This document shows, one piece after another, positions 8,598 to 28,424 of a stretch of DNA of 28,424 nucleotides; the stretch's first letter is position 1, and each line of letters opens with the position of its first letter. Source of the DNA: a virus. The position numbers and the translations under genes were made by a program. The stretch is from the IMG/VR virus record IMGVR_UViG_3300027747_000762, positions 1 through 28,424 of that record. One strand, given 5' to 3'. The notes under the pieces were generated by a model. That model did no database searches. It was given only the letters and a program-made list of their open reading frames with translations, and had not been told where the DNA came from.

Positions 8598-8747
8598 ATG
8601 TTAATAAATAATAATAGCCAAACAACATTTGCAGATATATCAATAAGCTTTGAGGCATACGTTGAAAAAACGATACACACTCACTTAAATCAAATTCAAT
8701 ATGAATTTGATTTCAATATGTTTCGATATACTGTTAGTTTAGATTGA
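8598..8747 (+). CDS. Small hypothetical protein (49 aa)
   Basis: An ATG-to-TGA frame of 49 codons directly after the AAT tract that follows gp41. The product starts with an Asn run (LINNNS) and is otherwise a plausible small soluble protein with mixed aromatic and charged residues (FEAYVEKTIHTHLNQIQYEF). There is no recognisable domain and no Shine-Dalgarno. It fills an otherwise empty gap, which favours a real gene, but composition alone cannot prove it. Confidence 0.4.
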   Translation: MLINNNSQTTFADISISFEAYVEKTIHTHLNQIQYEFDFNMFRYTVSLD

Positions 8748-9756: not shown

Positions 9757-9871
9757 AAAGACCATATTTGACAAATATCCTAAGATATTTGTCGATCATA
9801 CTAAGTCTCTTCAAGATACTAATATGGTTTATGGCTTATAGATAGGAGATGGCCAGTAGTTATAATTAATA
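9698..9871 (+). pseudogene. Truncated or decayed small phage gene (YPKIF...YGL...GDG family)
   Basis: From ATG 9698 (or the internal ATG 9740) the frame gives EKTIFDKYPKIFVDHTKSLQ and then NMVYGL before TAG at 9839-9841. From memory this matches the first half of a small phage protein family whose conserved core continues as YG(I/F/L)ECGDGW...LID. Past the stop, the same frame still reads IGDG at 9842-9853, then stops at 9857 and 9863, and LI at 9866-9871. The core therefore seems present but broken by point changes. The intact part is at most 47 residues. Confidence 0.45.
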
Positions 9872-9965: not shown

Positions 9966-10658
9966 ATGAATAACTTTATTTCCAATTACGAGATAAAAGA
10001 TGAAGAATACGATATCGATACCCTCGATAAGTATTTAAATCTTCCATTAAATAAACGCCAGAAAACAGTTTGGTTTTGGCCGTGTTCAATATATCTCACT
10101 CCGATAACCATGAAGTCGGATTTACGATCCAAGAATAAAAGCGAGTGGGAGAAATTTTATCTATACGTGTATAGCAACTATCCAATACAATTTTTCTTTC
10201 GATATACGCTTGACATACAACTTTCTTACATTAAAAGAAATATCAGAGAGTGTTATTATAAGTTAAAATATAGAATATCGAATCCTCATAAAGAAATGAG
10301 AGACAGTGTATTTCCTCCAGCGTATCAAGATCTGCCAAATATCATTATAAAGTTCCATATGGAATGTTTGATTGAGTATGTAGAACGCGAAGATTGCTTT
10401 GGTAAGATAGATTGGAATTCTTCAAAAGAACATAAGAAGCTTGCAAAGCTGATTCGTTATTACTATGACTATGCAAAATCTGGAAGAGACGAACTTCAGA
10501 AGAATCTAGATGAAGCTTATGATAGAGTTGAAGTTAATTCAAATAAGCCATATCTAACCATATATCATGATGTTCATTTAGCTGAAAATAGATTAAAAGA
10601 TGCCGATACTAAACTTTGCAAATGGGTAATAGATAATAGAGAACACTTATGGTCTTAA
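9966..10658 (+). CDS. Conserved-type hypothetical phage protein (230 aa)
   Basis: No named function. It is highly charged and Tyr/Trp-rich, mostly helical by composition. RYTLDIQLSYIKRNIRECYYK (residues 79-99) and a long C-terminal segment with YYYDYAKSGRDELQKNLDEA predict helices. The central part (MRDSVFPPAYQDLPNIIIKF and ECLIEYVERE) resembles a widespread phage family of helical proteins of unknown role, from memory. It is preceded by a 26-base gap and followed by a strong hairpin overlapping its stop, so it probably ends a transcription unit. Confidence 0.75.
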   Translation: MNNFISNYEIKDEEYDIDTLDKYLNLPLNKRQKTVWFWPCSIYLTPITMKSDLRSKNKSEWEKFYLYVYSNYPIQFFFRYTLDIQLSYIKRNIRECYYKLKYRISNPHKEMRDSVFPPAYQDLPNIIIKFHMECLIEYVEREDCFGKIDWNSSKEHKKLAKLIRYYYDYAKSGRDELQKNLDEAYDRVEVNSNKPYLTIYHDVHLAENRLKDADTKLCKWVIDNREHLWS

Positions 10659-10681
10659 GTTGTTGGTAATCAACAACTTAA
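10655..10681 (+). terminator. Hairpin at the end of the 9966 gene (possible terminator)
   Basis: A perfect 11-base-pair stem (10655-10665 with 10671-10681) and a GTAAT loop overlap the stop codon. It is not followed by a T tract on the plus strand (an A-rich stretch follows), so it may instead stabilise a 3' end. Confidence 0.5.
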
Positions 10682-11622: not shown

Positions 11623-12120
11623 ATGGAAAGCAATATAGCAATTTCTGGAGGATCGATACTGCAGAGGAAAATAGTGTCACAAGCTGCAAAATTCTATTTA
11701 AAGAAATTGCTTCCTAAAAACTATTTTGAAGTTACTCTCGTAATAAAACTTAAAAAGAATTATTACGAGCGAAGTGGTTCTCGTGCCGACATGATACCAG
11801 ATGATGATCAAGACTCAGATGACTATCCTCGCGAATTTGAGCTTCAATTAGATTCAAGCATGAAAATGTGTGGATTATTAAGAGCTTTAGCTCATGAGTG
11901 CGTGCACGTAAAGCAATATGTACTTTATGAAATGGAAGATACTAGTAATATACACATAGTTTGTTGGAACAAGAAAAAATACGATACTCGTAAAATAAAT
12001 TATTTCGATCTGCCTTGGGAAATAGATGCCTATGGTAGAGAAATTGGGCTTCATTCTATTTTTATAGAACGATTTAAGTATTTAAAAGCTAAATGGAATC
12101 AATACGATCCAGATTACTAA
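11623..12120 (+). CDS. Putative zinc metalloprotease-like protein (HEXXH)
   Basis: A 165-residue protein with LLRALAHECVHVKQY holding an HEXXH zinc motif (H91, E92, H95). Downstream, LPWEIDAYGRE offers acidic residues that could supply the third ligand, as in SprT-like and other gluzincin-type folds. Similar small HEXXH proteins with a later WE(I/A)(E/D)A segment are widespread in phages, but their substrates are unknown. The N-terminal 70 residues are unassigned and include an acidic loop (DDDQDSDD). Activity is inferred only from the motif. Confidence 0.65.
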   Translation: MESNIAISGGSILQRKIVSQAAKFYLKKLLPKNYFEVTLVIKLKKNYYERSGSRADMIPDDDQDSDDYPREFELQLDSSMKMCGLLRALAHECVHVKQYVLYEMEDTSNIHIVCWNKKKYDTRKINYFDLPWEIDAYGREIGLHSIFIERFKYLKAKWNQYDPDY

Positions 12121-12135
12121 TAATAAATATTAGAT

Positions 12136-12966
12136 ATGATTTCCAATAACTTTATCTCAAATCTAAGTAAACTTCAAATGATGTATGTTCTTGCAGATAA
12201 AAATTGGGGAAAGATATCAGCAGAAGTTAGAAATCAATATAATAAGTATTTAATAGAAGCTTCAAAGTCTGAAATTGACATTGCTCTCGGTAGAGCAAAT
12301 AAAATGACAATAGAGTTTTTAAAGTGGTCTCATCAAAATAATTATTCAGGAAGCATAAGGGGAGTATGGTTAGTTAACCACAAGAGAGATGTGGAAAGAA
12401 TAGCGGGAATACAATTATCATCTATCGAAGATCCATTTCAATTTTTAGTTCAATTTAGTTCTGGTCCGGCAAACGGTTATATCGGTGTATCTTTAAACTA
12501 TTTCATAGGCAAAAAGAAGCAGTTATCTATTAAGTGCCCTACCCTCGAGTCAATAGATAAATCTTTAAAAACTACACTTTTTAAAGATTCAAAGGCTTTA
12601 ATATTAAAGCAAAAAAAGGATAAAAAAATAAATATCCTCAAAGAATTAAAAAATGAATTATATGATACACTTTCTAACTTAAAGCCGAATGAGCTGCTAT
12701 GTCATATTGTAGATCTATGGGTAGATGCTGACGTAACATATCCTCCATTTGTAAGAATAATTGGAAAAAACTATCAAGAACCATTTTTAGCAGACGTCTA
12801 TCACTTCGTTTCAGATAAAAGAGCCGAATGTATTTCAAACTATGGAATACAACTCAAGAACCTTAAAAATTGTATTGAAGTGACCTCTGATACTACGCAT
12901 ATAATGAATATATGTTTTGAGTTCGACGAGGATAAGCCCAATTGTGTAATTATTACTGTCTCATGA
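12136..12966 (+). CDS. Hypothetical phage protein (276 aa)
   Basis: Not named. The central part, RDVERIAGIQLSSIEDPFQF and then GYIGVSLNYF, has the spacing of a PD-(D/E)XK nuclease core: an acidic residue before DP, then a beta-strand ending where a (D/E)XK would lie. The catalytic Lys position reads Asn, however. From memory, a family of phage proteins shares the GYxGVSLK segment. The C-terminus is beta-rich. It is ATGA-coupled to the glycosyltransferase at 12963, so the two are probably co-expressed. Confidence 0.6.
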   Translation: MISNNFISNLSKLQMMYVLADKNWGKISAEVRNQYNKYLIEASKSEIDIALGRANKMTIEFLKWSHQNNYSGSIRGVWLVNHKRDVERIAGIQLSSIEDPFQFLVQFSSGPANGYIGVSLNYFIGKKKQLSIKCPTLESIDKSLKTTLFKDSKALILKQKKDKKINILKELKNELYDTLSNLKPNELLCHIVDLWVDADVTYPPFVRIIGKNYQEPFLADVYHFVSDKRAECISNYGIQLKNLKNCIEVTSDTTHIMNICFEFDEDKPNCVIITVS

Positions 12967-20611: not shown

Positions 20612-20867
20612 TACAAATCCATTTGATACTTACCGGGTAATGCTTAAGGAAGATACTTCTGGAGATGTGATATCTTTAGACGTTCCTCTTCTTATTCGTA
20701 TCCTTGAAGCGGCGCGTGAAGATATTAAAAATGACGTAGAGCTTCATAAGTTTGTAGAGAACATGATCAAGATCAGTGATCGTGGAGTCCTTACTATGAA
20801 AGACTACGACGATATATGTTCTTGCTGGAAAAAGAACGGAGACGTACCACCATCCGAGACGACCTAA
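20604..20867 (+). CDS. Conserved small phage protein (87 aa)
   Basis: Its core, SLDVPLLIRILEAAREDIKN and the later HKFVENMIKISDRGVLTMKD, matches from memory a small helical protein encoded in the structural region of many marine T4-like phages. Its function is unknown. It is coupled by overlap to the upstream gene and followed by the start-codon hairpin of the next. Confidence 0.65.
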   Translation: MTNTNPFDTYRVMLKEDTSGDVISLDVPLLIRILEAAREDIKNDVELHKFVENMIKISDRGVLTMKDYDDICSCWKKNGDVPPSETT

Positions 20868-20895
20868 TAAATACTCTCTATATATGAGAGTATTT
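20864..20895 (+). promoter_or_regulatory. CTAATAAATAC box plus hairpin with start codon in the loop
   Basis: CTAATAAATAC (20864-20874) contains AATAAATA, a late-promoter-like box. A 10-bp stem (20869-20878 with 20886-20895) has the loop TATATAT. The ATG at 20884-20886 has its A and T in the loop, and its G is the first base of the 3' arm. The arrangement matches that at 25277-25304 with different stem bases. Confidence 0.55.
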
Positions 20896-21252
20896 GATGA
20901 ATTAAACGATCAGAATTTCCTGCTTTTTGCATCCAAAAACTATAACAATCCACAATGTGTAGACATTGCTGAATTTAACGATGATATTTCCAGATTTAAG
21001 TATATCAAACGACTTCTTCGAAGATACAGACAATCGGGTGAAATTCAAGAAAGATTAGTTCTTAATCACATCATCATACTTTATAACGTCTTTGGAATAC
21101 CAGCCGCAAACAAAATGATCTTTTTTAAAATAGAGCAAGAGCTATGGCCAGCCATTAAGACATTTTTAGTCTATCTGGACTACATTTCTGAGAATGAACG
21201 CGTGGAAGTTCCTGTTGATATGAAGATCGCTGAAATACTTCGAAAGATATGA
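20884..21252 (+). CDS. Conserved phage protein in the virion block (122 aa)
   Basis: From memory this belongs to a well-conserved phage family: DDISRFKYIKRLLRRYRQSG, RLVLNHIIILYNVFG and KTFLVYLDYI are its hallmarks. Members lie in structural regions of many T4-like phages, and the function is unknown to me. It is helical, and near full length for that family. Its start sits in a hairpin loop that could control initiation; its end is ATGA-coupled to the next gene. Confidence 0.7.
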   Translation: MRVFDELNDQNFLLFASKNYNNPQCVDIAEFNDDISRFKYIKRLLRRYRQSGEIQERLVLNHIIILYNVFGIPAANKMIFFKIEQELWPAIKTFLVYLDYISENERVEVPVDMKIAEILRKI

Positions 21253-22210: not shown

Positions 22211-22402
22211 TCGTAGCAGGCAGTAATAATAATAATTATTATTACTATTACTACTATTTAATCATTTTTAAAAAAGTTTTAGAGTATAGATAGATTATTG
22301 TTGCATACATTCTCGAATAAGAATGTACATTCCACTTAACTTTTGGTAGTCTATAGGAGTAGTACTCCTATTTCTATTAAAATTTACATCCTATAACTTC
22401 TT
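22211..22402 (+). other. Gene-free spacer with three hairpins
   Basis: There is no credible ORF in these 192 bases. Three inverted repeats are present: 22222-22246 (12-base arms of AAT/ATT repeat around one base, possibly ending the late block), 22306-22327 (TACATTCT with AGAATGTA, 6-base loop) and 22353-22371 (ATAGGAGTA with TACTCCTAT around one base, 31 bases before nrdB). The last could be an operator or attenuator. It is the main transcriptional boundary between virion genes and nucleotide metabolism. No convincing promoter pair was found. Confidence 0.6.
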
Positions 22403-25276: not shown

Positions 25277-25304
25277 CTAATAAATACCACTATAATGTGG
25301 TATT
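25277..25304 (+). promoter_or_regulatory. CTAATAAATAC box plus hairpin with start codon in the loop
   Basis: The 11-mer CTAATAAATAC (25277-25287) is identical to that at 20864. An 8-bp stem, AATACCAC (25283-25290) with GTGGTATT (25297-25304), has the loop TATAAT. The ATG at 25295 has its first two bases in the loop and its G at the start of the 3' arm. Confidence 0.55.
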
Positions 25305-25705
25305 ATAAAGATCAACCTTACGAACCTATTAACTTAGATCCAAAAAAAGATATTGGATTTGTATACTTAATAAAAAATAAGGTTAGCGGAAAGCTTTATG
25401 TTGGTAAAAAACTGTTTTTCTTTAAAGGCTTTAAAAAAATAAAAGGAAAAAGGAAGCGAACTTACATAGAGTCAGACTGGAAAGAATACTATGGATCAAA
25501 CAGGCTGTTACAGGAAGACGTACAGGTATCAGGACCAGAAAACTTTGAAAGAACTATATTGCATCTATGCTCCTCAAAAGGTCACTGTAACTATCTAGAG
25601 CTGTATGAACAGATTACACGAAATGCTATTATAGATCCTGGGTATTATAATGACTTAATATGGGTTAGGATCAATAGAAGTCATTTAAAGAATATTAAAT
25701 TTTAG
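25295..25705 (+). CDS. GIY-YIG-type nuclease-like protein
   Basis: A 136-residue protein with the GIY-YIG core GFVYLIKNKVSGKLYVGKK (residues 21-39; here FVY and YVG), then ESDWKEYYGSN. From memory this matches a phage family annotated as GIY-YIG or Seg-like, with the later HLCSSKGHCNYLELYEQ. The catalytic Tyr positions and Lys are kept, and a Glu (E71 or later) could be the metal ligand. It could be a homing-type endonuclease or a domesticated nuclease. There is no sign that it interrupts another gene. Confidence 0.65.
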   Translation: MWYYKDQPYEPINLDPKKDIGFVYLIKNKVSGKLYVGKKLFFFKGFKKIKGKRKRTYIESDWKEYYGSNRLLQEDVQVSGPENFERTILHLCSSKGHCNYLELYEQITRNAIIDPGYYNDLIWVRINRSHLKNIKF

Positions 25706-27309: not shown

Positions 27310-27342
27310 ACAAGTTATACCGAATAGTATAACTTGTCTTTT
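27310..27342 (+). terminator. Hairpin followed by TTTT (terminator or start-region regulator)
   Basis: A perfect 11-bp stem, ACAAGTTATAC (27310-27320) with GTATAACTTGT (27327-27337), 6-base loop CGAATA, then CTTTT. It has the shape of a rho-independent terminator, but the next gene starts at 27345, so it could also control that gene's translation. A weak promoter (TTTACA 27307-27312, TATAAC 27328-27333, 15-base spacer) overlaps it. Confidence 0.6.
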
Positions 27343-27913: not shown

Positions 27914-28174
27914 ATGCCTACATACGATTATACCTGTGAAGCCTGCGGTCATACATTTGATATGAATGTACAAGTAATGGAAAGAGATATTTTTGCTCAA
28001 TCTACTCCATGTCCGGAATGTAAAAAGAAAAAATTAATTAGGGGAGTGTCTGCTGCAGCTTTTCATTATGACCATGGAGTGTCTATACATAAGAGAGCTG
28101 GAGATGGCTGGAAAGAAGTTCAAGATAGAATTAAGGCTGGATCCGCTAAAAAGAATACTATTACGACTAAATAA
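27914..28174 (+). CDS. FmdB-like zinc-ribbon protein
   Basis: An 86-residue protein, start placed at ATG 27914 (MPTYDYTCEACGHTF) because that is the standard FmdB N-terminus; an in-frame ATG at 27884 lies inside the previous gene. Zinc ligands are CEAC (residues 8-11) and CPEC (near 36-39). The C-terminal part is basic and Lys-rich. FmdB-like ribbons are common in phages and bacteria as small regulatory or structural proteins, with no specific role established here. Confidence 0.8.
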   Translation: MPTYDYTCEACGHTFDMNVQVMERDIFAQSTPCPECKKKKLIRGVSAAAFHYDHGVSIHKRAGDGWKEVQDRIKAGSAKKNTITTK

Positions 28175-28186
28175 TAAATAATACTA

Positions 28187-28424
28187 ATGGCTAAAAAACC
28201 TAAAGGTCAACAGAAGATAAAAATTCAACCGTCTGGACTTGGACTTGAGAATTTAAAAGAAATAAGCCCTCTTACACTTATACAGAAAAAGGTATTTCAA
28301 GCTTTTAAAAAGAATAATAATCTTTGTTTATCTGGAAGCGCAGGTACTGGAAAGACTTTCATAGCCATGTATCTAGCATTAGAAGAGATACTCTCAGGCG
28401 AATCAAAGGCTGAAAAGGTGATAG
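28187..28424 (+). CDS. phoH: PhoH-like ATPase, N-terminal part (runs off the window)
   Basis: Starts at ATG 28187 and is open to the window end (79 residues). A basic N-terminus (MAKKPKGQQKIKIQ) is followed by LTLIQKKVFQAFKKNNNLCL and Walker A SGSAGTGKTFIAMYLAL, the PhoH/helicase-superfamily P-loop preceded by a Q-like motif. PhoH-like ATPases are frequent in marine phages; the activity (RNA helicase or nuclease-associated) is not settled. It starts after an AAT-rich junction. Confidence 0.85.
   Translation, partial: MAKKPKGQQKIKIQPSGLGLENLKEISPLTLIQKKVFQAFKKNNNLCLSGSAGTGKTFIAMYLALEEILSGESKAEKVI

Follow-up and report, generated by a model that had tools for sequence, protein, structure and literature searches.

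The results of this work suggest that two genes of a T4-like phage fragment are controlled by late promoters built into the very RNA hairpins that mask their start codons. The window, i.e., the whole stretch of DNA analysed, is the IMG/VR virus record IMGVR_UViG_3300027747_000762 over its 28,424 nucleotides (nt), and the two sites lie at the starts of a DUF7207 gene (site 1) and of a SegE-like GIY-YIG endonuclease gene (site 2), both on the + strand. We consider it likely that at each site a late promoter is combined with a hairpin masking the start codon. Transcripts reading through from upstream early or middle promoters would keep the whole hairpin, whose loop or stem would hold the AUG and block initiation of translation. 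The late RNA polymerase, with its gp55-type sigma factor, would instead initiate about 6 nt past TAAATA, within the loop, and late transcripts lacking the 5′ arm would carry a free AUG 0–6 nt from their 5′ end, to be translated in leaderless or near-leaderless form with no Shine-Dalgarno sequence. Such a switch would probably silence both genes before the late phase of infection.

The two sites share the 11-mer CTAATAAATAC (20864–20874 and 25277–25287), and the 10-mer TAATAAATAC that forms part of it occurs exactly twice in the window. Within the 11-mer lies the sequence AATAAATA (20866–20873 at site 1 and 25279–25286 at site 2), an accepted variant of the T4 late box TATAAATA. In T4, this 8 base pair (bp) box precedes the transcription start by about one helical turn, with its first base at −13, where an A replaces the T at nine T4 sites (PMC2988020), as it does here. 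Hairpin 1 consists of 10 perfect bp between the 5′ arm AAATACTCTC (20869–20878) and the 3′ arm GAGAGTATTT (20886–20895), separated by the loop TATATAT; the A and T of the ATG (20884–20886) are in the loop, and its G opens the 3′ arm, which continues through codons 2–4. Hairpin 2, recovered from the sequence, the fold and the inverted-repeat count, pairs AATACCAC (25283–25290) with GTGGTATT (25297–25304), 8 bp around the loop TATAAT, its ATG (25295) being placed as in hairpin 1 and its 3′ arm again made of the start-codon G plus codons 2–4. At both sites, pairing runs from bases inside the box onward, and the partners are the opening codons of the gene that follows. As RNA they fold at −12.3 (site 1) and −10.3 kcal/mol (site 2), which none of 200 dinucleotide shuffles equals (z −5.0 and −3.6), though in 81-nt contexts z is only −2.3 and −1.9, respectively. 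Perfect inverted repeats with arms of at least 8 and loops of 3–9 nt number 13 in the window, compared to 4.1 in shuffles; the window is generally enriched in them, and what is special here is the coincidence with a promoter box and a start codon. The hairpins and the placement of their ATGs, as described in the original prediction, are thus confirmed by sequence, folds and shuffles.

Taking the box as −13 to −6, T4 spacing predicts late transcription to start on the + strand at 20879, the first loop base of hairpin 1, and at 25292, the second loop base of hairpin 2. Relative to these points, the last base of the 5′ arm is at −1 in hairpin 1 and at −2 in hairpin 2, both arms lying entirely upstream. 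Since the predicted start falls inside the loop, the 5′ arm would be missing from the late mRNA, whose leader would measure about 5 nt at site 1 and about 3 nt at site 2. When the predicted late RNAs are refolded alone, the hairpin is seen in neither, and freeing positions −6 to +8 around the start codon costs about 10 kcal/mol in the read-through RNA as opposed to 1–2 in the predicted late RNA. Across the DUF7207 family, 78 pairs touch this region, and in every one of them the 5′ partner precedes the predicted start. A stable helix over the initiation region of read-through RNA is what predicted folds, shuffles and covariation (see below) all give. Sequestration of a Shine-Dalgarno sequence, as in the classical I-TevI and mobE form, is not, as 0/16 hairpin-family starts have a Shine-Dalgarno-like word at −18 to −4; in the predicted folds, the masked element is the AUG alone. 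The original prediction had held that transcripts starting inside the stem would refute it; this has to be turned around, because the mechanism of T4 e and I-TevI expects the late start to be inside the hairpin. The box, a predicted late promoter, adjoins or overlaps the 5′ side of the hairpin at both sites and in their homologues. Homologues of gp55 are found in three related contigs (G001, G003, G008), the window fragment itself having none, and a scan for sigma-70 promoters around both sites gave no excess over shuffles.

If the structure is what matters, it should be kept while its sequence changes, which is what the homologues suggest. The original prediction read the different stem bases of the two sites as compensated; the two sites are non-homologous, so that their comparison is no covariation, but each family covaries among its own members, the first DUF7207 topology more weakly. 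In SegE the arms change and the hairpin stays: TGG-TAT/ATA-CCA in the window, TGG-CTT/AAG-CCA in the L027 group and TGG-ATG/CAT-CCA in L108. An alignment of six SegE sequences has 95% of its cells paired and three pairs changed on both sides, values biased towards the structure, as the arms were registered by hand and five of the six rows have a placeholder for a loop; slid registers were all poor, and 1/500 shuffles did as well in paired cells and covariation score. In DUF7207 homologues of the same topology as site 1, TCTC/GAGA becomes TTTC/GAAA (L072) and the arms AAATAATTT/AAATTATTT appear in L163; taken alone, the covariation of this topology is weak (64/500 shuffles as good). Other DUF7207 homologues show a second topology, whose loop holds the box, the ATG being within or abutting the 3′ arm: CATAGCGGTA-ccataaa-TACCGCTATG in L167, CATACCCGTAT-ctcataa-ATACGGGTATG in L184, TTCATCGTG-ataaataac-CACGATGAA in L107, and a version containing G-U in L178. 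Three such sequences, aligned with placeholder loops and a register set by hand as for SegE, have 27/27 cells paired and three doubly changed pairs. In these alignments, pairing is kept through compensatory changes, and the fact that two topologies reach one outcome (the AUG masked and the 5′ arm before the predicted start) argues for selection on the outcome rather than on the sequence.

Start-codon hairpins are also far from general among late-box starts. We compared 89 non-redundant gene starts of the window's clade with a box 4–11 nt upstream, 16 of them in the DUF7207, SegE and ORF12136 families (the last, named after an open reading frame (ORF) of the window, is described below) and 73 in others. 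The median fold is −11.4 kcal/mol in the three families against −3.6 at the other starts (a descriptive p of 8e-7), and −8 kcal/mol or better is attained by 75% of the former and 11% of the latter. DUF7207 homologues with an adjacent box fold at a median of −13.4 kcal/mol and those without at −4.1 (descriptive p 1e-4), the box-less ones being mostly hairpin-less. When sequences were swapped at the predicted start, SegE gave a significant result both against any site (p 2e-4) and within the family (p 0.006). For DUF7207 the same test was marginal (p 0.12 and 0.04, respectively) and was set aside as the wrong one, since the second topology puts most of the paired bases before the start. Some observations weigh against our interpretation. 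In SegE, copies with and without the box do not differ significantly in folding (p 0.30), and several of those without it carry a different hairpin at the start (L055, e.g., has CATACTGATGgaggcaCATCAGTATG) or a variant box, TAGATA (L182 group); L061, L067 and L164 have the box and fold poorly, and L001, a DUF7207 homologue, has one broken pair. The p-values are descriptive because the homologues are related by descent and the families were selected once the data had been inspected, and two of the three pair counts rest on placeholder loops put in a hand-made register. Likewise, both late start points are placed by T4 geometry, and hiding an AUG without a Shine-Dalgarno sequence would repress translation to an extent that may vary. 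Sequence, pairing, covariation and the geometry relative to the box are seen directly, and from them we infer promoter activity, start points, read-through, repression and leaderless translation. Even so, the pairing in the homologues and its specificity support the original idea of a late promoter combined with translational control and with selection on structure.

Could the hairpins be explained otherwise? The most serious alternative, which we nevertheless find unlikely, is that the hairpin in read-through RNA insulates the late gene as a terminator, a pause or an RNase processing site and does not mask the AUG. Some hairpins do end ahead of the ATG (L023 of DUF7207 and the phage BUCT-ZZ01), and upstream of the segE-like starts of L057, L058 and L070 a box and a long hairpin are followed by a T-rich tract and then the ATG. 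The hairpins of the window, however, have no U-tract after them and are absent from the list of a terminator scan, and in most homologues the ATG itself is in the loop or the stem. The arrangement in L057, L058 and L070 (e.g., ATAAATACCCATAC...GTATGGGTATTTTC) is curious in its own right, looking as if promoter and terminator overlapped.

It is less probable still that the inverted repeat has its function at the DNA level, either as an operator or in helping the promoter to open, e.g., with the endonuclease repressing its own late promoter. I-TevI does bind an operator overlapping its late promoter, and the arms are on or beside the box in every case; yet arm sequences unrelated between homologues, and a repeat that shifts relative to the box from one topology to the other, are ill-suited to a single DNA-binding protein, and the majority of the clade's remaining late promoters have no such repeat. 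The least credible explanation, to which we give very little weight, is coincidence, whereby a box ending in AATAC would complement codons such as GTATT fixed by protein conservation and no structure would be selected. GTATT is indeed found in both coding regions, and inverted repeats are, as said, common in the window. Against this, pairing and covariation in homologues extend to bases outside the box, the stems of the second topology involve bases that are not of the box, and folds of −8 kcal/mol or better are, as given above, much commoner in the three families (75%) than at other late starts of the clade (11%).

The masking hairpins seem to be set in a wider peculiarity of the clade. Of the 106 ATAAATA words in its loci, 48 precede the first ATG of an ORF by 4–11 nt and only 8 do so by 12–50 nt, whilst the corresponding numbers are 0 and 14 in the T4 late region, 0 and 7 in Syn9, and 3 and 19 in Melnitz. 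Control words of like composition are at 4–11 nt in the clade in 2/59 and 2/57 cases. When whole contigs are taken, 12 from the clade (some of them apparently near-duplicates) together have 119 instances of ATAAATA-N(3-12)-ATG, compared with 31 of the reversed control. Ten isolates show no excess of N(4-11) boxes (35 against 39 in the control), and short-spaced boxes are not in evidence in the nrdA relatives G005 and G006, the feature being confined to other relatives. The spacing predicts leaders of 0–6 nt; at its commonest value, 5 nt (31/89), T4 geometry would put the A of the ATG at +1. The assigned starts appear to be supported by G008 proteins that share their N-terminus from M1 (MVLSGIPISE, MTLAGIPISE, MVLNGIPISE). 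Shine-Dalgarno-like words, absent from the 16 family starts, precede 2.7% of the 73 other late-box starts and 11.5% of other clade starts. Leaderless late mRNAs would be the simplest reading of this spacing and scarcity, and the literature searched turned up no description of them in T4-like phages. A clade-wide role of ribosomal protein bS21 as a helper of leaderless initiation was considered and is not supported, a homologue being present in 1 of the 13 related contigs searched (at 216525–216686 of the 217-kb contig G008).

On balance, we lean, with some reserve, towards the view that a large part of the late regulon in this clade has come to be expressed from leaderless mRNAs, the box standing right against the start codon, and that late genes standing among early ones add a hairpin lock hiding their Shine-Dalgarno-less AUG on messages not begun at the late promoter. 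If so, the 5′ end of the RNA would be at once the ribosome's entry signal and the timing signal.

The T4-like character of the window rests on its encoding UvsX, a DnaB-type helicase, NrdA/NrdB, an RNase H-like exonuclease and PhoH, the Nrd names being our own reading of the ORFs and their relatives. The gene starting at site 1 (20884–21252, + strand, 122 amino acids; PF23837, E 3.9e-46) has a confident, all-helical structure model that found no significant match in the PDB, hence no function is assigned to it. That at site 2 (25295–25705, + strand, 136 amino acids; PF19835, E 1e-32) has nrdB and nrdA directly upstream. Genes of this type are usually transcribed early or middle in T4, and the position of site 2 right after them is counted in favour of read-through. 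Many segE-like GIY-YIG homologues of PF19835 in cyanophages are labelled ‘NAD synthetase’ in public annotation, which looks like a propagated misannotation. A possible, weak third site (12117–12138, + strand) is CTAATA-ATAAA-TATTAG, whose loop holds the box and which ends 2 nt before the ATG at 12136; it folds at −3.0 kcal/mol, and an ORF12136 homologue on contig G004 (L285) has a 12-bp version at −17.8 kcal/mol. By way of contrast, ATAAATA stands 6 nt before the phoH-like ATG at 28187 (28174–28189, + strand) without any hairpin, and its transcript is predicted to be near-leaderless. Other perfect inverted repeats with arms of 10–12 bp are at 8687–8713, 9770–9793, 10655–10681, 12560–12589, 22222–22246 and 27310–27337 (shuffles lead one to expect 0.35 with arms of at least 10 bp); several are intergenic and may be terminators or other hairpins. 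No Rfam family matches at its gathering score anywhere in the window. In a related phage, a tRNA cluster includes a tRNA for which ARAGORN gives an anticodon of four bases (cctg; L161, 19182–19258).

The principle itself is known. In T4 e (lysozyme), soc and 49, the late promoter is encoded in the 5′ side of a hairpin hiding the initiation region in early read-through RNA (PMC3014915), and the late transcript lacks that 5′ portion, as is predicted here. Those hairpins hide the Shine-Dalgarno sequence and/or the AUG of mRNAs with a normal leader, whereas here there is no such word, the box is 8–10 nt from the ATG and the late mRNA is predicted to be near-leaderless; at the late promoters of T4 (gp55/gp33/gp45), the distance from box to ATG is 12–50 nt in the T4 late region, as opposed to 4–11 nt in the window's clade. 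Cultivated relatives would be nearer to classical T4 e, with leaders of ordinary length in the Synechococcus phage BUCT-ZZ01 (host S. elongatus PCC 7942), whose segE has a box and AAATAGAGTAGG/CCTACTCTATTT followed by TTATG (12 bp, −15.3 kcal/mol), and in the Variovorax phage V45v66, whose segE has ATAGATCATC/GATGATCTAT, the 3′ arm including the ATG; C48C1 has CCTATAGATAGG followed by TGCATG. A literature search on promoter/stem-loop (PeSL) cassettes gave no paper on point. The timing device of T4 e and the homing endonucleases would thus extend to uncultured T4-like phages, to the conserved gene DUF7207 and to initiation without a Shine-Dalgarno sequence, by which gene finders cannot recognise start codons in these phages; the clade-wide spacing of 4–11 nt makes leaderless late mRNAs in a T4-like phage a testable prediction. 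Among homing endonucleases, I-TevI and segB of T4 are of the GIY-YIG type and mobE of Aeh1 sits in an nrd gene (PMC2988022), and site 2 resembles them as a GIY-YIG gene beside nrd genes with a hairpin and a putative late promoter. They, however, sequester a ribosome-binding site about 8 nt upstream of the AUG, and here site 1 belongs to a non-endonuclease gene and a second topology exists. Given the lack of a classical Shine-Dalgarno sequence among the masked elements, we file the two sites as a variant that would work on the principle of T4 e, I-TevI and mobE.
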